A DNA stretch of 50,540 nt from Acidobacteriota bacterium (GTDB lineage Bacteria; Acidobacteriota; JAAYUB01): positions 1 to 50,540 of the forward strand of contig JAFGRT010000063.1 in the NCBI GenBank assembly GCA_016935015.1, written 5' to 3'. Both the position numbers and the translations under genes were made by a program. Below are positions 37,621 through 50,540 of this stretch, piece by piece. Numbering within the stretch: the stretch's first letter is position 1; each line of letters starts with the position of its first letter. The notes beneath the pieces were generated by a model, which worked only from the letters and a program-made list of their open reading frames with translations, did no database searches and was not told the DNA's origin.

Positions 37621-38543
37621 AGCTCCTCCTGGTGGTGGACGCTCCGGGGTGCGAAGGCGGTCAGGTCGGCCGGCGACAACTGCCGGCACTGCGTCAGGCT
37701 GCCCTGGAACACACAGTGCCCCCAGCCGGCGGCGGCGTCCTCAAGGCCGGTGATGACTTGCCAGTCACCCGCCGGCTGCTGTGTCGCCAGCGAGCCGAAG
37801 GCCGTGTGACAACCTCCCTCGAACCGGGCCAGCAGATGACGTTCGATGGACACGGCCTTCCGGGTGGTCTCGTGGTCCAGGGGCTGCACGGCGGCCAGGG
37901 TTTGGTGGTCATTGGCGCGGGCCTGCACGGCGATGGCCCCCTGCCCCGGTGCCGGCAGCCAGATCTGCGGATTCAGTTCATAGACCAGCAGTTCCGTTAA
38001 ATCAGCCTGCAGGCGCTCGATGCCGGCCCGGGCCAGGATGATGGCGCCGTACTCCCCGTCGACGCATTTGCGGACGCGGGTGGGGACGTTCCCCCGCAGG
38101 AACGCCGGTTCCGTCCGCGGGGCGTACAGCCGCAGCAGCGCCTGGCGGCGCAGGGAGGTGGCGCCGACGCGACCGCCGTCCCGTACCGGCAGCAGGTTGG
38201 CCGGTTCATGCCAGTCGGGGTGGACAAGCAGCAAATCGCTGACGGCGGCCCGCGGCAGATAGGCGGCCACGGTCAGACCGTCGGGCAGGGTGGTGGGCAG
38301 GTCCTTCAGGGAGTGGACGGCCAGGTCAATGGCGCCCGCCAGCAACTGGTCCTCAATCTCCTTGGTGAAGAAGCCTTTCTCCTGTTGCCCCTGCAGGGCA
38401 ATGCTCAGGAAGCGGTCGCCGGCGGTCTCGATCACCTGAATCTCGGCTGGGACCGTCAGCTGCGCCGCCACGGCGCGGGTCTGCCACATGGCCAGGGCGC
38501 TGCCGCGCGTACCAATGATGAGCGGTTTATTGGGAACGGTCAT
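37599..38543 (-). CDS. hemC: Hydroxymethylbilane synthase (porphobilinogen deaminase)
   Basis: This 314-residue enzyme polymerises four porphobilinogens. The dipyrromethane cofactor is carried by C245 (ARFEGGCHTAFG). The substrate-binding blocks are LIIGTRGSALAMWQT at the N terminus, GAIDLAVHSLKDLPT and GATSLRRQALL. It has normal length. It overlaps hemA by 17 bases and hemD by 22, showing tight coupling. Confidence 0.97.
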   Translation of the reverse strand: MTVPNKPLIIGTRGSALAMWQTRAVAAQLTVPAEIQVIETAGDRFLSIALQGQQEKGFFTKEIEDQLLAGAIDLAVHSLKDLPTTLPDGLTVAAYLPRAAVSDLLLVHPDWHEPANLLPVRDGGRVGATSLRRQALLRLYAPRTEPAFLRGNVPTRVRKCVDGEYGAIILARAGIERLQADLTELLVYELNPQIWLPAPGQGAIAVQARANDHQTLAAVQPLDHETTRKAVSIERHLLARFEGGCHTAFGSLATQQPAGDWQVITGLEDAAAGWGHCVFQGSLTQCRQLSPADLTAFAPRSVHHQEELCRPLPR

Positions 38544-39768
38544 TCTGACTCCAGTATTCCTCCAGCGCGTTCTGTAACGCCTGATGGACTTCGTTGGCAT
38601 AATCGTTGAAACATTTCTTGATGGCGCCCACCACATGGCGGCGGCACTGCTCGTTGGAACAGAGCAGTTGCTCGTCCACCATCAGCGGCAGCCGCTCGTG
38701 GATGTACTGCTGGCGCCCCTGATGAATGCGGTCCAGCAGATGGGACATGTCTCGTTCCAGGCAGAAACGGGTAAATCGTTCCTTTTCCTTGCGGATTTCT
38801 TCCTGCAGTCGTGCCGTGGCGTCGGGATCGGCCTCTTCTTGGGGCAGGGCCAGCAGGTCGTCGATGGAGCGGTAGACGATCCGGGGATCGCTCCGCAGCG
38901 TGGAATCCATCTGACGCGGCACGCCGATGTCCATCACCCACAGGGGAGTCCGGCGAGGCATCCCGTTCAGCATCTCCGCCGTGAGAACCGGTTGCAGGCT
39001 CCCGGTGGCCAGCAGCAGGGCGTCCAGGTCGGCCGCGGCGACCGGCAGTTCCGCCAACGGTCGCCAGGAGCCGTGCAGTTCCGGCCGGATGGTGCGATTG
39101 AAGGGCACCACCTCCATTTGCGGCTGTTCGGTCAGCAGGTGAGCGGCCTTGCGGCCGATGGAGCCCATGCCCACCACGCCGATACGGTGGCGGCCGGCGC
39201 TCGGCGGAAGCTGGCGCAGCAGAAAGGCGACGGCCAGACCATGAATGCCCTGGCGATGATTGGAGCGGAAACCGATGCGGTAGGCCGTCTTGGCCAACCG
39301 GCCGGCGGCGCTGCCGAACCGGTTCAGGATGGGGGATGCGGTTTTTTCCTCCTGGGCCCGGTTGAGGGCGTCCTGAAACTGGCCGGCGATCTGGGCCTCG
39401 CCCAGGGCCAGCGACTCCAGCCCCGCCACCACCTGGAGGGCGTGGGCCACGGCCGCTGAGCCCACGAAACAGGAGGGCTGCGGCACTAGGGCGGAGCCCG
39501 GTACGTTCTCCGTCCAGATCTGGAGCATGCGCGCCTTGAGCAGTTCGGCCAGCCAGGCCGGGTCGTCACTCGTTACGAGCCATTCCACCCGATTGCATGT
39601 CTCCAGGGCCATGAAACCGGCCTCGGGATCCACCCGCTGCAAAGCGCGGAAGAGCTCGGCACGATGTGTCGGGGTCAGGACCAGCTGCTCCCGGAACAGG
39701 GTGGCGGCCTGGCGAAAATCGCAGCCGACGATAGCCAGGGGGATGTCTTCCTTGAGGGGAGCCTTCAT
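38527..39768 (-). CDS. hemA: Glutamyl-tRNA reductase
   Basis: This 413-residue NADPH enzyme makes glutamate-1-semialdehyde from Glu-tRNA(Glu), the first step of the C5 pathway. The catalytic C58 lies in ALETCNRVEW. The SLALGEAQIAGQ block and the NADPH-binding GVVGMGSIGRKAA (about 197) are present, as is the C-terminal dimerisation helix. It overlaps hemY by four bases. With hemL it shows that 5-aminolevulinate comes from glutamate, not glycine. Confidence 0.97.
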   Translation of the reverse strand: MKAPLKEDIPLAIVGCDFRQAATLFREQLVLTPTHRAELFRALQRVDPEAGFMALETCNRVEWLVTSDDPAWLAELLKARMLQIWTENVPGSALVPQPSCFVGSAAVAHALQVVAGLESLALGEAQIAGQFQDALNRAQEEKTASPILNRFGSAAGRLAKTAYRIGFRSNHRQGIHGLAVAFLLRQLPPSAGRHRIGVVGMGSIGRKAAHLLTEQPQMEVVPFNRTIRPELHGSWRPLAELPVAAADLDALLLATGSLQPVLTAEMLNGMPRRTPLWVMDIGVPRQMDSTLRSDPRIVYRSIDDLLALPQEEADPDATARLQEEIRKEKERFTRFCLERDMSHLLDRIHQGRQQYIHERLPLMVDEQLLCSNEQCRRHVVGAIKKCFNDYANEVHQALQNALEEYWSQNDRSQ

Positions 39769-41150
39769 CGGGCACCTTCCGCTGCGGGTGATCTCAGAAA
39801 ACCGGAACAGGCGGCGGCGGCCCGGTAGCCGCTTTCGGTGGCGTGTTCGATGCCGACGCCGGTGAGATAATTGCCGGCCAGAAACAGGCCGGGCAGCTGC
39901 TGTACTTGGTGTTCAATGGCCGCAATCCGTTCGGGGTGCTGCGGCAGCAACTGGGGGATGGCTTCCGGATAGCGCCGGATGCGGATGACCTGCGGCCGCA
40001 GGGCGTCGTCGCCGAAGATATGACGATGTTCGCTGGTCACCAGCGCCGTTAGTTCGCTGTCCGACAGCGCCATGGCCGCTGGGTCATGCATCCCGCCGTA
40101 AAAGGAGGCGTAGAGGGCAGAGCCGGCCGGCGCCCGCCGGCTGAACAGCTGGGAGGCGAAAATGGTGCCCAGCACCCGCAAGTCATAGTGCTGCGGCATC
40201 AGGAAACCGAAGCCCGGCGGGCCTCCGTTGCGACCCGGGCCGGGCGTCCAGTGGACCATGGCCACGGGGGCCATGGGGATGGCGCTGAATTCCGGCTGCA
40301 GTTCGGGTAGCGCTTCGCTGAGGATCCGCGCCGCCGCGGCCGGCGGCACGGCCAGCACGATGCTGCGGCCGGCGAAGGTGTCGGCGACTGTCCTCACGTG
40401 AAAACCGCCGGCCGTGGGAATGATCGTTTCCACCGGCGTGCCGGTCCGGACGGCGTCGCCCAGTTCGGCGCCGAGATGAGCGGTAATCCGGCCCAGGCCG
40501 CCGCGAAAGCTGAACAGCCCCCGGCGGGGCGTGATGCCCTCCGCCGCCAGACGCCGGCGCTTGGCGCGCATGTACTTGACGGCGCCCAGGATCATGGAGC
40601 CCCCATTCTTTTCGAACTCCCAGAACTTGTGGAAGGCGGCGCGGGCGCCCAGCATCCGGACGTCGCCAGCGTACACGCCCGACACGAAGGGCGACATGAT
40701 ATAGGTGGCCGCCTCGCGGCCGAAGCGCCGGCAGAAGAATTCCCAGGCCGTGTCGTTTTCCCGGGCGCCGTTGGGAATGAAGGGTTCCAGACCGAGTCGC
40801 AGTTTGGCGCCCAGGCTCAGCAGCGGGGTGCGCAGAAACATGCCCGGGCCCATGGGCAGCGGGTGCAGCCGTCCGTCCCGATAAATGTAGCGGAAACGGG
40901 ACGCCGCCTGGGCCGGTTCGGCTTCCACTTCCAGCTGCAGCGCGGACGTCAGCTTCCAGACGTTCTCCGAGGACCCCATGAAGCTGTGAGGTCCGACTTC
41001 CAGCCGGAAATCATCCATCTCCTCGGTGCGGATGTTGCCACCCACCTGGGGCGCCGCTTCCAGCAGCCGGACCGAGTACCCCTCCTGACGGAGGTTGTAG
41101 GCGGTGGTCAGGCCGGAAATGCCGCCGCCGATGACAATCACATCATGCAT
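39765..41150 (-). CDS. hemY: Protoporphyrinogen oxidase, HemY type (FAD-dependent)
   Basis: This 461-residue flavoprotein has the dinucleotide motif VIGGGISGLTTAY (about 5-17) and the PPO blocks EVGPHSFMG, SPFVSGVYAGDVRML and FLAGNYLTGVGIEHATESGYRAA (FAD-binding C terminus). It oxidises protoporphyrinogen IX to protoporphyrin IX, usually with O2, next to the membrane. In Gram-positive relatives it acts on coproporphyrinogen, but the adjacent hemN and the Gram-negative context favour the protoporphyrin route. The start (41148-41150) overlaps hemH by eight bases. Confidence 0.95.
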   Translation of the reverse strand: MHDVIVIGGGISGLTTAYNLRQEGYSVRLLEAAPQVGGNIRTEEMDDFRLEVGPHSFMGSSENVWKLTSALQLEVEAEPAQAASRFRYIYRDGRLHPLPMGPGMFLRTPLLSLGAKLRLGLEPFIPNGARENDTAWEFFCRRFGREAATYIMSPFVSGVYAGDVRMLGARAAFHKFWEFEKNGGSMILGAVKYMRAKRRRLAAEGITPRRGLFSFRGGLGRITAHLGAELGDAVRTGTPVETIIPTAGGFHVRTVADTFAGRSIVLAVPPAAAARILSEALPELQPEFSAIPMAPVAMVHWTPGPGRNGGPPGFGFLMPQHYDLRVLGTIFASQLFSRRAPAGSALYASFYGGMHDPAAMALSDSELTALVTSEHRHIFGDDALRPQVIRIRRYPEAIPQLLPQHPERIAAIEHQVQQLPGLFLAGNYLTGVGIEHATESGYRAAAACSGFLRSPAAEGAR

Positions 41151-42120
41151 GCTCTGCCTCCAGTTTGCGGGCGGCCGTGGCCGCCAGGTCGGCCAGGGCC
41201 GCCAGGTAGCGGGGCGAGTCACCCAGGGCCGGGACGCGCTCCAGCCGGGAGATGCCGGCCGCTGCACACTGCTGCCGGAAGACATGGTCCAAATCGTAGA
41301 GCGTCTCCAGATTTTCGGCCACGAAGCTGACCGGCACGACGACCAGCTGTCGCACGTTCTCTCCGGCCAGGCGGGCCAGTTCCTCTTCCAGGGACGGTCC
41401 CTGCCAGCGGACGGGGCCGACGCGGCTGGAGTAAGCCAGCGACCAGGCGCCATCCAGGGACAGTCGTTCCGTCACCGCCCGCACCGTGGCCTCCGTCTGG
41501 GCGACATAGGGGTCACCGGCAACCACGGCCTTGCGGGGGATGCTGTGGGCCACGAACAGGGTATGCCGCTTCCCGCCGTTTTCCAGCCGGGCCAGGCTTT
41601 GGGCTGCGAGTTCAGCCAGAGCGGCGATATAGCCCGGATGATCGTGATGATCCTCGACGAACACGTGAGGCCGGTTGCCGGCGTGGCGTCGGAATTCGCG
41701 GATGGCCGACAGGGTGGTGGCTCGGGAATACTGGGGATAGAGAGGGATGACCACCACTTTGCGCGGGCGCTCGCCGTTGAGATCGGCCAGCGCCTGGGGG
41801 ATGAACGGCTCGATGTAACGCATGGCGTATGTCACCGGACAGTCGAGCAGACGGGCCAGTCCGGTGGCCTGCTTGCGGGTCTCCGTGTCCAGCGGCGACG
41901 CGCCGCCGATCAGCCCGTAGCGTTCGGCTACCCGGGGCGCCCGCCGGGCGGCGATAATTTTGGCCAGCCGGTCCTGATAAAAGTGCCCGCCGGGCATGGC
42001 GATCATGTCCCGGTCGGAAAAAATGCGGCGCAGGTAGGCTTCGATTTCGCCCGGCCGGCGGGGGCCGCCCATGTTGAGTAGCAGGACGGCGGTTTCCGTG
42101 GCGATGGATGTCTGTGGCAT
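41143..42120 (-). CDS. hemH: Ferrochelatase
   Basis: This 325-residue enzyme inserts Fe2+ into protoporphyrin IX. The metal-binding catalytic H192 is in LFVAHSIPRKAV. The opening VLLLNMGGPRRP, the block YGLIGGASPLD and the late FVAENLETLYDLD (second metal-binding acidic residue) are family signatures. It lies 15 bases after hemN and overlaps hemY. No C-terminal Fe-S cysteines are seen. Confidence 0.96.
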   Translation of the reverse strand: MPQTSIATETAVLLLNMGGPRRPGEIEAYLRRIFSDRDMIAMPGGHFYQDRLAKIIAARRAPRVAERYGLIGGASPLDTETRKQATGLARLLDCPVTYAMRYIEPFIPQALADLNGERPRKVVVIPLYPQYSRATTLSAIREFRRHAGNRPHVFVEDHHDHPGYIAALAELAAQSLARLENGGKRHTLFVAHSIPRKAVVAGDPYVAQTEATVRAVTERLSLDGAWSLAYSSRVGPVRWQGPSLEEELARLAGENVRQLVVVPVSFVAENLETLYDLDHVFRQQCAAAGISRLERVPALGDSPRYLAALADLAATAARKLEAEHA

Positions 42121-42135
42121 CGGTAACGAAACTCC

Positions 42136-43533
42136 TTATACTGTTCGGGAATAACGGCGCTCCCGCTCCTCGCCGGCCAGGTACTGGTCGAACACCATGC
42201 AGATGTTGCGGATGAAGAACCGGCCCAGGGGGGTGACCGAGAGGGCCGATTTACCGGTCTGCAGCAGGCCGTCGTCGGCCAGCGGCCGCAGCTTTTCCAG
42301 TTCGGTGGCGAAATGGACTTTGAAATCCAGCTGATGGGCCTGCGACACCCGGGCCAGGTCCAGGTGAAAATTGCAGAACAGGTCGAGGATGATCTCCCGG
42401 CGCAGGAGGTCCTCGTCGCTCAGCCACAAGCCCTTGACCCAGGTGCCGCCGGCGGCGCGTTCCCGGTAAGCGGCGATATCCTTGATGTTCTGACAGTAGG
42501 TGCGACCCACCGAGCTGATGGCCGACGCGCCCAGGCCCATCAGATCCAAACCGCGGCGGGTGGTGTAGCCCATGAAATTGCGGGTCAGGGAGCGGCGGTC
42601 CAGGGCCCGGATCAGTTCGTCCTCGGGCAAGGCGAAATGGTCCATGCCTACATGCCGGTAACCGGCGGCCAACAGCATCTCGAAGGCCAGTCCGAACAGG
42701 TTCATCCGCTCAGCGGGGTTGGGCAGATGGTATTGCTCCAGGGTCTGCTGGTGCGGGCTGACCCAGGGGACGTGGGCGTAGCCGAAGAGGGCGATGCGCG
42801 GCGGACGGAATTCCATGATCCGCCGGATGGTGCGGCCGAAGGTCTCTTCCGTCTGGCCGGGGAGTCCGTAGATCAGGTCCATGTTGACGGCCGTACGCCC
42901 GCGACGGCGCAAATGGGCGACCAGTTCGTCCAGTTTTTCCGGGGCGAGACGACGGCCCACTTTGCGTTGGACGTCGGGCTCCAGGTCCTGGACCCCGAAG
43001 CTGAAGCGGTTGAACCCAACGTCGACGAGCATGTCCAGGTAGTCGGTGTCCAGACGCCGCGGATCCATTTCCAGGGAGCGTTCGGCACCGTGGGCGAAAG
43101 TGAAGCGCCGCTCCATGCCTGCCACCAGGCGGCGCATCTGCGCCGGGTTCAGGAACACCGGTGTACCGCCGCCCAGGGCCAGCTGCTCCACGGCGGGGAG
43201 GTTGCCCGTGAGTTCGACCAAGCGGTCCATTTCGGTGAACAGGGCGGCGAGATAATCATCGACGGCGGCGGCATCGTGCCCGATCTCGGTGAAGCAGCCA
43301 CAATACAAGCAGCGGCTCTGACAGAACGGGATATGGATGTAGAGGGAAAGCCCGGCGGCGCTGATGCTCGACTGCCGCCAGGCGGCGGCGATCCGTTCAA
43401 TGTCGAAATCGGCGGTGAACTGCGGTGCCGTGGGATAGCTGGTGTAGCGCGGCGCGCTGGTGGAATAGCGGGCCAGCATGTCCGACGGGATTTGGCGCGG
43501 GCTGAGGGCAATATCCACCAGGGGTTCAGCCAT
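42136..43533 (-). CDS. hemN: Oxygen-independent coproporphyrinogen III dehydrogenase
   Basis: This 465-residue radical-SAM enzyme has [4Fe-4S] ligands C71, C75 and C78 plus C80 in IPFCQSRCLYCGCF. It has the YTSYPTA segment (30-36) that distinguishes true HemN from the heme chaperone HemW. The substrate-site block QDLEPDVQRKVGR is also present. It makes protoporphyrinogen IX without O2. I chose the ATG at 43531-43533, which overlaps hemE by eight bases; a longer start would lie wholly inside hemE. Confidence 0.96.
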   Translation of the reverse strand: MAEPLVDIALSPRQIPSDMLARYSTSAPRYTSYPTAPQFTADFDIERIAAAWRQSSISAAGLSLYIHIPFCQSRCLYCGCFTEIGHDAAAVDDYLAALFTEMDRLVELTGNLPAVEQLALGGGTPVFLNPAQMRRLVAGMERRFTFAHGAERSLEMDPRRLDTDYLDMLVDVGFNRFSFGVQDLEPDVQRKVGRRLAPEKLDELVAHLRRRGRTAVNMDLIYGLPGQTEETFGRTIRRIMEFRPPRIALFGYAHVPWVSPHQQTLEQYHLPNPAERMNLFGLAFEMLLAAGYRHVGMDHFALPEDELIRALDRRSLTRNFMGYTTRRGLDLMGLGASAISSVGRTYCQNIKDIAAYRERAAGGTWVKGLWLSDEDLLRREIILDLFCNFHLDLARVSQAHQLDFKVHFATELEKLRPLADDGLLQTGKSALSVTPLGRFFIRNICMVFDQYLAGEERERRYSRTV

Positions 43534-44563
43534 GGATGTGCTCCTTGTTCCAGGCGAACGCCGCCTCGATGAATGCGGCGATGCCGGCCAGGGGAGTGTC
43601 GGGGTGGAGGCCATGGCCCAGGTTCAGGATATGACCGCGCCCACCGGTTTGATTCAGTATGGAAAAAACCCGATCCCGGATGAGGGCCGGAGGAGCCATG
43701 AGTATTCCGGGATCGAGATTGCCTTGCACGATCGTGTCGTCACCCAGCCGTCGCCGGACATCAGCCAGGTCCAGTCGCCAGTCGATGCCCAGCACGTCGG
43801 CACCGGTCTCATGGGCCGCTTCCAGCAGTCCGGCGATGCCGTTGACGTAGTAGATCACGGGGGTGCCCGTGGCGCGAATCCGTTGCACGATGGCCCGCAC
43901 ATGGGGCAGCACGTGATCGCGGAAGTCGGGCGGGGACAGCTCGCCGGCCCAGGTGTCGAACAGCTGAACGGCGGTGGCGCCGGCCCGCACCTGCATCAGC
44001 AGGTAATCGGTCACGGCCTCCGCCAGGCGCTCCTGCAGGGTGATAAACGCGGCGGTCTCCCTGTGCATGAACGCCTTGATGCGATGAAAATGCTTGCTGC
44101 CGCCCCCCTCCACCATGTAGCTGGCCAGGGTGTAGGGTGCGCCGGAGAAGCCGAGAATGGCCAGGTCCGGTCCGGCCTGGCGGCGCACCTCGCGGATGAT
44201 GGCGGCCACGTAGCCCAGTTTGTCTTCGGGCTGGGCCGCGGCCAGGCGTGTCACGTCGGCGGCGCGATGGATGGCCGGCGTCACGGTGAGACGGGGTGTG
44301 AATTCCACGTTCAGCCCCATGGCCGCCGGGATGGTCAGGATATCGCTAAAGATCACGGCGGCGTCCATGCCGAACCGGCGGATGGGCTGGAGGGTCACTT
44401 CGGCGCTTAGTTCGGGCGAACGGCACATGTCCCAGAAGGAGTATTTTTCCCGTAGAACGCGGTATTCGGGCAGGGTGCGGCCGGCCTGGCGCATGATCCA
44501 GACGGGTGGTCGATCCACGTCGTCGCCGCGACAGGCTCTTTGAAAACGTTCGATGGGGGTCAT
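43526..44563 (-). CDS. hemE: Uroporphyrinogen decarboxylase
   Basis: This 345-residue enzyme removes four carboxylates from uroporphyrinogen III. The signature RPPVWIMRQAGRTLPEYR (18-35) contains R25 and R29, and D74 lies in FSDILTIP. It has normal length. CGGAGG lies five bases before the ATG at 44561-44563. It is the first gene of the heme operon. Confidence 0.97.
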   Translation of the reverse strand: MTPIERFQRACRGDDVDRPPVWIMRQAGRTLPEYRVLREKYSFWDMCRSPELSAEVTLQPIRRFGMDAAVIFSDILTIPAAMGLNVEFTPRLTVTPAIHRAADVTRLAAAQPEDKLGYVAAIIREVRRQAGPDLAILGFSGAPYTLASYMVEGGGSKHFHRIKAFMHRETAAFITLQERLAEAVTDYLLMQVRAGATAVQLFDTWAGELSPPDFRDHVLPHVRAIVQRIRATGTPVIYYVNGIAGLLEAAHETGADVLGIDWRLDLADVRRRLGDDTIVQGNLDPGILMAPPALIRDRVFSILNQTGGRGHILNLGHGLHPDTPLAGIAAFIEAAFAWNKEHIHG

Positions 44564-44619
44564 GTGCGCCTCCGCTCCCGTTGGTTGTCGGCGGAACGGT
44601 ATCATGTTCGGCCGGGCGA

Positions 44620-47864: not shown

Positions 47865-47890
47865 CCCCCCGCCGGGAAAGTGGCGGGGGG
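47865..47890 (-). terminator. Hairpin terminator after the DUF1573 selenoprotein gene
   Basis: CCCCCCGCC (47865-47873) and GGCGGGGGG (47882-47890) form a perfect 9-bp GC stem with an 8-base loop, eight bases past the stop codon on the minus strand. A moderately U-rich tail (TTCTCGTCTTCC) follows. Confidence 0.75.
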
Positions 47891-47898
47891 CGATGAAT

Positions 47899-49023
47899 CT
47901 AACGATCGGTGGTATCGGTTTTCTTGACGGGCTGGTTCGTCGGGCGATCGGCCCGAATGCGCTGGGCCCGGACGGTCACGCTGACGGGGATCCGCTCCTG
48001 CTGCTGATCGTCCGTGATGATGACGATATTGCCGCGCCAGTACTGCCGGTCGAACGATTCGCGGAAGCCAATCTTGACCTGGTATTCCCGGCCTTCCTGG
48101 ATGGTGATGATCTCGTGGGTGAGGTCTTCCAGCCCGGCCTGGACATCCAGCACATGGAACGTGTAATCGGCGGCCGTGGCCTTCACGACGAGCATCCGTT
48201 CATGGACCGGCTGCCCTTCCTGGGACACGAAATGGAGCCGGTTCGGAAACACGCTGATGTTGCCCAGCACTTCGCCGTACACGGATACCTGGATGCGGTT
48301 GACCAGCGGATGATCGGTAGTGATCAAGACGGTCTCGCGGAAACGGCCCATGGCTGACCCCGGCTTGACGGTGATCTTCACGCGCTGATCCGGCTGGTTC
48401 TCGAATCCGTCGGGATTGTGTTCCACCTCGATATTGCCACCAGTGCTGTTGGTATCGAGGATCTTGACCTGATCCTTCTCCGATCCGATGACGTTCAGAT
48501 AACGGCTGAAGGTTTGGCCGCTACCCATCTGGCCGAAATTCACGGCCGTGGGCTCCAGGGCGAACTGCACGGTTACTTCCGCCGAGACGGTCAGCCTGAC
48601 CGTGGATTGCAGTGGATCGTTGGAATAGACCATCACCGTTTTCGAAACCCGGTTCATGTAACTGCCGGTGTTGAGGGTGACTTCGATCTGGCCTTCCCCG
48701 CCCGGGGGAATATTCTTGGCCGAGGCCAAGACGGCGGCGCAGCCTCAGCCGGATTTCACTTTCTCGATGATCAGTTCTCCGTTCCCCACGTTCTTGAAGG
48801 AGAACGAATGCTTGAGGCTGATCCGCTGGTTGGCGAGGCCGAAGTCGTGCTCGAGATTGGCGAACTCGATCTTCGGGGCGGTACCTTCGATGGGTTGGTA
48901 GAACGGCGCCGGCTGATCCTGGGGCGGAGGAGCCGGTGTCGCCTGGCCGATACCCACGCAACCCGCCAGGAGAAAACCCAGCAGCAGCGTCAGGCGGGCC
49001 GGTTGAGATATCCACTTTGACAT
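47899..49023 (-). CDS. DUF1573-domain lipoprotein, probable selenoprotein (Sec at internal TGA 48745-48747)
   Basis: Read through one in-frame TGA, this is a 374-residue protein. It has a lipoprotein signal with lipobox LLAG-C22 and a Pro-rich linker. A DUF1573 domain (about 50-150) runs FSFKNVGNGELIIEKVKSG-U93-G-C95. Two to three further Ig-like beta repeats follow (about 150-365, for example LEPTAVNFGQMGSGQTFSRY and ISVFPNRLHFVSQEGQPVHE). In ordinary DUF1573 proteins this spot reads S-C-G-C; here the first Cys is TGA and the second is kept, giving U-G-C. Both halves are in one frame and the protein family continues smoothly on either side, so a nonsense pseudogene is less likely. A stem-loop lies 13 bases after the TGA. 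The alternatives are a truncated pseudogene or sequencing error. Promoter: 49065-49093. AGGAG precedes the ATG by 11 bases. It would face the periplasm, perhaps in thiol/selenol redox chemistry. Confidence 0.75.
48714..48731 (-). promoter_or_regulatory. Candidate bacterial SECIS hairpin
   Basis: In the mRNA, UCUUGGC-CUCG-GCCAAGA forms a perfect 7-bp stem and tetraloop beginning 13 bases after the UGA, with the loop 21-24 bases after it. That distance is in the range of bacterial SECIS elements inside the coding region. The loop lacks the G-U pair best known from E. coli fdhF, so SelB recognition is an inference. Confidence 0.5.
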
Positions 49024-49064
49024 TGGTATGTACTCTCCTGCAGAGTGATTGAAACAACCCTGAA

Positions 49065-49133: not shown

Positions 49134-50540
49134 TCAGGCGCGGATGGTGCGGGTGGTCAGGGTGCCCGCCAGTATCTCGCGCTGGGGCCGGGTTGGCACA
49201 ATCTCTGCCGGATTCGGCAGCCGAACCTGGCCCGTGTCGATGGCCGAACGGAGATCACCGAATTCCTGCCGCAGGGTTCGGTCCAGGTCCTCGGTGCTCA
49301 GGCCGGGTGTCCGCACGGGCGTATAGCGCGGCAGCAGATCGTGGACGTCTCCCAGATTGACCGCCACGTTGAGTTGATGGCCGAACTGGGTGATGGCGGC
49401 CAGGGATGTACCGTCCATGAGGCCCCTCAGGAATCGGCTGCTGTCGCCGACGACGCCCAGTTCCTCCATCACCCGGCGGTCAAACGGGATGTTGGCCCGG
49501 GCGGGCTGCTCGTGCCGCCGCACCAGTTGTTCCACCACGTGATACAGGGTGTCACTGGTGAGAACCCGGAGGAAAGAGCCGCTCTGGGTGCTGGCGGGGA
49601 TGCTCTCCTCGATGGCTTGCTGCAACAAGGTTTTGTCGCCGCTGGTCTCCTTCAGGTGGGTCAGCAGCTTGACAAAATCCCCGCTGCGCAGATAGGCCAA
49701 GAAAACGCCGGCCGGGTGCAGCATGTCCAGCGTCTCCTGCAGAATGGGGCGGCGCAGCAGGTTGCCGGCGGATTGGGTCAGCTCGGCCAGCCCCTCCGTG
49801 AAGGCCGGCGCCGACAGGGTCCGGGTAAAGCGCTGCAGGCCCGCGCTGAACGCTTCGGCTCCGCTGTCCTCCGCCGACCCGGGTCCTTGGCGAAGTGCCT
49901 GCACCGCCTGCTGCAGGTGGGTAAAGGGTTCCGTCAACCGCGGCAGCGCCGGGTGCGAGTCCAGACGGGTGATCTCCCGGTCCAGCTGGTGCAAGCCTTC
50001 GACCAGCTTCGGGCCGGTCAGCAGGGTCTGGATCTCCATCCCCTGGCGGACAAGCTGCCGCACTTCCACGGCCTGGGGCCGGTGATCGTCCTGCAGCGCG
50101 GCATGCAGGCCTTCCAGCCGGCGCTGCCACTGGCCGTTGCCGAGCTGGTGGTGAAGACCCTCCAGGTGCCCGGCCAGTTCCTGCAAGACCGGTGCCCCGA
50201 CCGGATCGGACGTCTGGCGGACAACCTGCAGCAGGTGCTGCACGCTATTCGGCAGGCTGTTCTCTTGCCATGATTGGATGAATTTGGTCCCTTGTCGACT
50301 CAGACCGGACAGCTTGTCCAGGACATCGTCTACCGGTTCGGTCAGGGTGGGGATCTTTTCCGCGCCCGCCACACCGCCGCGCAGTCCGGTGAGGACCGCC
50401 GCTAGGTCGAGGGCCAGTTCCCGGCCGGTGTGATGCAGCTCGGGCACCATGCCGGTGAGCCGCGGCAGCACGGTGGATAGAGTCTCCCAGCCCTGTTCTA
50501 GCAGTTTCACCGTCGGCGCCGGTGGGGGTGGGAAAAGGGA
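49134..50540 (-). CDS. Unrecognised, largely alpha-helical protein (5' end outside window)
   Basis: The frame is open from the right window edge to the stop at 49134, at least 468 residues. The apparent GTG at 50508-50510 is probably internal, because the open frame continues upstream with a Pro-rich stretch PPPPAP. The sequence is dominated by amphipathic helices with Leu/Gln/His (for example LQELAGHLEGLHHQLGN and LLTHLKETSGDKTLLQQAIEE). No signal, membrane helix or catalytic motif is recognised. Strong GC bias at third codon positions supports this strand over the open plus-strand frame opposite. It might be a coiled-coil or scaffold protein; I do not assign a function. Confidence 0.6.
   Translation of the reverse strand, partial: SLFPPPPAPTVKLLEQGWETLSTVLPRLTGMVPELHHTGRELALDLAAVLTGLRGGVAGAEKIPTLTEPVDDVLDKLSGLSRQGTKFIQSWQENSLPNSVQHLLQVVRQTSDPVGAPVLQELAGHLEGLHHQLGNGQWQRRLEGLHAALQDDHRPQAVEVRQLVRQGMEIQTLLTGPKLVEGLHQLDREITRLDSHPALPRLTEPFTHLQQAVQALRQGPGSAEDSGAEAFSAGLQRFTRTLSAPAFTEGLAELTQSAGNLLRRPILQETLDMLHPAGVFLAYLRSGDFVKLLTHLKETSGDKTLLQQAIEESIPASTQSGSFLRVLTSDTLYHVVEQLVRRHEQPARANIPFDRRVMEELGVVGDSSRFLRGLMDGTSLAAITQFGHQLNVAVNLGDVHDLLPRYTPVRTPGLSTEDLDRTLRQEFGDLRSAIDTGQVRLPNPAEIVPTRPQREILAGTLTTRTIRA

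Follow-up and report, generated by a model that had tools for sequence, protein, structure and literature searches.

A single TGA codon interrupts a lipoprotein gene of an Acidobacteriota bacterium, which raises the question of whether this codon ends translation or encodes selenocysteine (Sec). A reading made from the letters alone (hereafter, the sequence-only reading) had proposed a probable new selenoprotein. We analysed the window, that is, the whole stretch of 50,540 nucleotides of contig JAFGRT010000063.1, together with its host assembly, an Acidobacteriota MAG of 4.75 Mb in 237 contigs with an estimated completeness of 96.8%. The selenoprotein part of the proposal is upheld by the Sec machinery, the conserved UGA, the Cys/Sec exchange and a downstream hairpin. 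The word "new" has to be given up, since the family, OS_HP2, is already known. We put the probability that the gene encodes a selenoprotein, with Sec replacing the leading Cys of the DUF1573 motif, at about 93%.

The reading frame and its TGA codon

The gene for this DUF1573 (OS_HP2-type) selenolipoprotein occupies positions 47899-49023 of the minus strand, and all its features below are on this strand. A plus-strand reading of the same interval was dropped, because the true frame is on the minus strand. The gene starts with the ATG at 49023 and ends with the TAG at 47901-47899, and a GGAGAG Shine-Dalgarno-like sequence (49033-49038) lies 9 nt 5' of the ATG. Translation with UGA read as Sec gave 374 residues and bore out the claim that one TGA interrupts an otherwise open lipoprotein frame: the single internal stop is the TGA at codon 93 (48745-48747), in the context KVKSG-U-GCAAV. 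The codon-position GC is equal on both sides of it (GC3 0.77 before and 0.80 after). The lipobox pattern predicts that Cys22 of a LAGC sequence (residues 19-22, 48958-48969) is the lipidated residue, and from this we infer lipidation of the protein.

The Pfam DUF1573 (PF07610) match spans the TGA. It covers residues 52-150 (48574-48870) and bears the U-G-C motif, and the protein scores 101.5 bits against a gathering cut-off of 26.1. Using homologue alignments, we showed that the TGA falls on the first Cys of the DUF1573 motif and that the second Cys is kept, so that the Sec-Gly-Cys arrangement proposed earlier holds. The codon of this second residue, the presumed resolving Cys95 (48739-48741), is invariant in the alignments.

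A lone TGA between open frames is unpersuasive by itself, because the GC-rich window contains more than 50 TGAs with at least 80 open codons on each side. The TGA at codon 93 stands out among them because it lies exactly on the invariant Cys column, is conserved in relatives and is followed by a hairpin. An annotation that reads TGA solely as a stop would truncate or split such genes. Two further observations concern the flanks of the gene. Directly 3' of its TAG lies an inverted repeat, CCCCCCGCC...GGCGGGGGG (window 47865-47890), possibly a terminator. On the 5' side, a 458-codon open frame with no Pfam match occupies window positions 49134-50510 of the minus strand.

Conservation of the TGA and Cys/Sec exchange

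We compared the gene with its homologues in related genomes. A single TGA, situated at this very codon, was present in each of the three same-family genomes (about 35% protein identity) and in each of the two same-order genomes (22% identity). Frameshifts or other stops in close relatives, which the sequence-only reading had named as evidence against Sec, were not what we found. Instead, all five relatives share the TGA at this codon, and the frame after it is kept at the protein level in spite of identities of only 22-36%.

The survey was then widened to the phylum, in which 396 Acidobacteriota genomes were searched with the OS_HP2 model. Of these, 208 gave a match; many of the matches lack a TGA, and some contain one. 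In the homologues whose sequences were read, the motif column holds UGA in 31 cases and Cys in 62, which is the Cys/Sec exchange at the same column that had been suggested as a check. A tree of 87 domains implies at least nine switches between Cys and Sec, of which at least four are forced by well-supported branches, and it places our protein together with the three family relatives. The range of OS_HP2 extends to many Acidobacteriota families, with repeated exchange. Proteins related by such exchange lend themselves to comparisons of what Sec contributes in folds other than thioredoxin.

The distribution of UGA forms was also compared with that of selB in a sample of 60 genomes. UGA forms were confirmed at the motif in eight genomes (G001-G005, G008, G014 and G048), and selB was present in all eight. 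Among the 15 genomes of the sample without selB, no UGA form was confirmed, and several have Cys forms. One candidate UGA form (L026) was rejected, since its TGA sits at the C-terminus and the homologue is a Cys form. The genome studied here also encodes a second DUF1573 protein (L048 on contig C32), a Cys form with the motif TTCGCT that is ended by the contig edge.

Selenocysteine machinery

The sequence-only reading had advised a search for the sel genes, and most of them are present in the genome. We found selA (518 bits), selB (372.6 bits, above the cut-off) and two selD genes; selC, the gene for tRNA-Sec, was not found in this assembly. One of the two selD genes (L051 on contig C122 or L052 on contig C60) has an in-frame TGA in the active-site motif GAG-U-ACKLGP and a hairpin downstream of that TGA. 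This selD gives the genome another, independent selenoprotein gene, which is of a known selenoprotein type. The other selD gene has no stop in a 751-codon open frame and is possibly a fusion.

The search for selC in the assembly used the Rfam covariance model, a loop pattern and BLAST with the selC of a relative. The best covariance-model matches were rejected as ordinary Leu and Ser tRNAs after ARAGORN was run around them. In contrast to this, selC was detected with 78-81 bits in two family relatives (G002 and G003) and in both order relatives (G004 and G005). It adjoins guaA in G002 and G003, and a synteny check showed that the guaA of our genome is present without an adjoining selC. We take the missing selC, as an unproven assumption, to reflect an assembly gap or another location of the gene.

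A SECIS-like hairpin downstream of the UGA

A SECIS-like hairpin was identified by folding and comparison at 48714-48731, from nt +14 to +31 after the UGA. It consists of a perfect 7-bp stem with the loop at +21 (UCUUGGC-CUCG-GCCAAGA), and the stem alone has an energy of -12 kcal/mol and a z-score of -2.3. The corresponding helix of the three family relatives reads CCCUGG(U/C)-UUCG-GCCAGGG. The stem stays 100% paired in all four family members: two pairs differ by compensatory U-A/C-G changes and none is broken, and sliding the partner strand as a control abolishes the pairing. A CUUCUC-GGU-GAGAAG helix occupies almost the same position in the order relatives. The segments of 46-78 nt from the UGA onward gave weak fold z-scores (-0.5 to -1.1), and we therefore relied on the contrast with Cys homologues and not on fold energy alone. 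When the codons of the region were resampled, 116 of 5000 sequences reached the stem score, which is significant but modest for a single gene.

For the comparison across the phylum, a hairpin was counted when 6 bp or more paired without interruption and enclosed a loop of 3-7 nt that started 17-26 nt after the codon. Such a hairpin was present in 30 of the 31 UGA forms versus 2 of the 62 Cys forms, a contrast that is inflated by relatedness, so that independent pairs on the tree were used besides. Across well-supported branches, 3.8 of 4 pairs had the hairpin on the side of Sec and none had it the opposite way, a number of pairs too small for a significant sign test.

The published bacterial (bSECIS) model requires a loop 16-37 nt after the UGA, a stem of 4-16 bp, a loop of 3-9 nt and an MFE of at most -7.5, and it further demands a G in the first two loop positions (PMC13188914). 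According to the same review, a subset of bSECIS elements fails this model (PMC13188914). Our hairpin falls within the geometry, with a loop from +21 (20 nt between), 7 bp, a 4-nt loop and -12 kcal/mol. Its loop, CUCG, lacks the early G, while the loops of the relatives are UUCG in the family and GGU in the order. Most hairpins of UGA forms in the phylum have UCG-, ACG- or UUCG-type loops without an early G, and only a minority have GGU, GAU, GUC or AGUU. We tentatively suggest, as a rather doubtful possibility, that Acidobacteriota have a SECIS variant whose loops mostly lack G at position 1 or 2 (UCG, ACG, UUCG, CUCG), with a SelB loop code unlike the published bacterial consensus, and that OS_HP2 is widespread in the phylum and was gained or lost many times. 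The loops poor in early G may indicate a different loop preference of SelB in this phylum.

Is the TGA a stop or an error?

The evidence for Sec has to be weighed against two simpler explanations. In the standard code TGA means stop, the GC-rich window has many isolated TGAs flanked by open frames, and searches of the assembly did not detect selC. These facts would fit a genuine stop, which would leave a pseudogene or only a 92-residue fragment. Yet five relatives at 22-36% identity share the codon and keep the frame behind it, the TGA falls on an invariant Cys column, the hairpin separates UGA forms from Cys forms (30/31 versus 2/62), and the genome has selA, selB and selD. A genuine stop is very improbable against these observations. 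It is also conceivable that an error of sequencing or assembly turned TGC or TGT into TGA, as this needs a difference of one base and the data come from a MAG. However, the same TGA with the hairpin occurs in independent MAGs from other species and other studies, and the chance of such an error is practically negligible. Sec at codon 93 is thus strongly supported, because the Sec machinery, the conserved UGA, the Cys/Sec exchange and the conserved downstream hairpin all speak for it. From these computed features we infer that Sec is actually inserted.

Relation to known OS_HP2 proteins

The sequence-only reading knew of no established DUF1573 selenoprotein family, and in this it was mistaken. 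Selenoprotein lists in reviews carry the entry "DUF1573 domain-containing protein, pfam07610, UGC", credited to Zhang & Gladyshev 2007 (PMC9312934, PMC13188914). An ocean survey of 2008 lists the DUF1573 family as OS_HP2 with the motif UxC (PMC2398784), and the NCBIfam model NF041425 is named "OS_HP2 family (seleno)protein". OS_HP2 shares with our protein the domain and the U-G-C motif, in which Sec replaces the first Cys and the third position remains Cys, and it has Cys homologues in other organisms. The family was named in a deltaproteobacterial symbiont, whereas our protein is from Acidobacteriota. The Cys-type DUF1573 proteins (PF07610) of Acidobacteriota, Bacteroidota and others share the Ig-like domain, and their C-G-C occupies the position of our U-G-C. 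They differ in having Cys for Sec, and in 60 of the 62 Cys forms there is no downstream hairpin.

Our protein scores 92 bits against NF041425, below the curated cut-off of 100 bits, and two same-family relatives score above it (L116, 100.3 bits; L117, 105.5 bits). The cut-off is strict, because only 3 of the 396 phylum genomes pass it. The protein is an OS_HP2 member in the sense of the literature, as a DUF1573 protein with UGC, and not by the NF041425 cut-off. This kind of selenoprotein is already known, and what is new is this Acidobacteriota member.

Predicted fold and possible function

The AlphaFold2 model has three all-beta domains (mean pLDDT 86, pTM 0.66), with U-G-C (residues 72-74 of the mature protein) in a loop between two strands. 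The domains resemble the Ig-like domains of ASH/HYDIN/VesB and of PDB 2qsv in sequence and predicted fold, although the global TM-scores are low (0.22-0.38), so that the resemblance is to single domains and not to the whole protein. PDB 2qsv is an uncharacterised protein, and HYDIN-type proteins are ciliary scaffolds. The locus is an evidence-rich case of Sec in a periplasmic lipoprotein that is predicted to be all-beta and not of the thioredoxin type.

On the basis of these predictions, the lipoprotein would be anchored in the membrane via Cys22 of the LAGC sequence and would face the periplasm. SelB, directed by the hairpin just 3' of the UGA, would put Sec at codon 93, a position occupied by Cys in most homologues. 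The Sec-Gly-Cys pair would then lie on the inter-strand loop of the first of the three Ig-like domains. Sec93 and Cys95 could form a reversible selenenylsulfide there and serve as a thiol/selenol redox site in the periplasm. A redox role of the U-G-C site is the most likely working model, which we hold with slightly better than even confidence.

The main rival to this role accepts the selenoprotein and supposes that Sec-Gly-Cys mainly binds or detoxifies a soft metal or metalloid (Hg, Cu, Ag or As). Exposed loops with a C-x-C or U-x-C pair are capable of chelating soft metals. In addition, OS_HP2 is listed beside Sec-containing mercury proteins (PMC9312934, PMC2398784). Against metal binding, no metal-resistance genes lie near the gene among the scanned genes of the window, and no conserved neighbourhood points to such a function. 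We consider metal binding unlikely and keep the redox role as the working model. No conserved gene neighbourhood links the window to the family relatives, and the surrounding genes gave no clue to function. Elsewhere in the window, positions 38527-44605 of the minus strand hold a haem biosynthesis cluster, with genes for glutamyl-tRNA reductase, an amine-oxidase-type protein (perhaps protoporphyrinogen oxidase), ferrochelatase, a HemN-type radical SAM protein and uroporphyrinogen decarboxylase.
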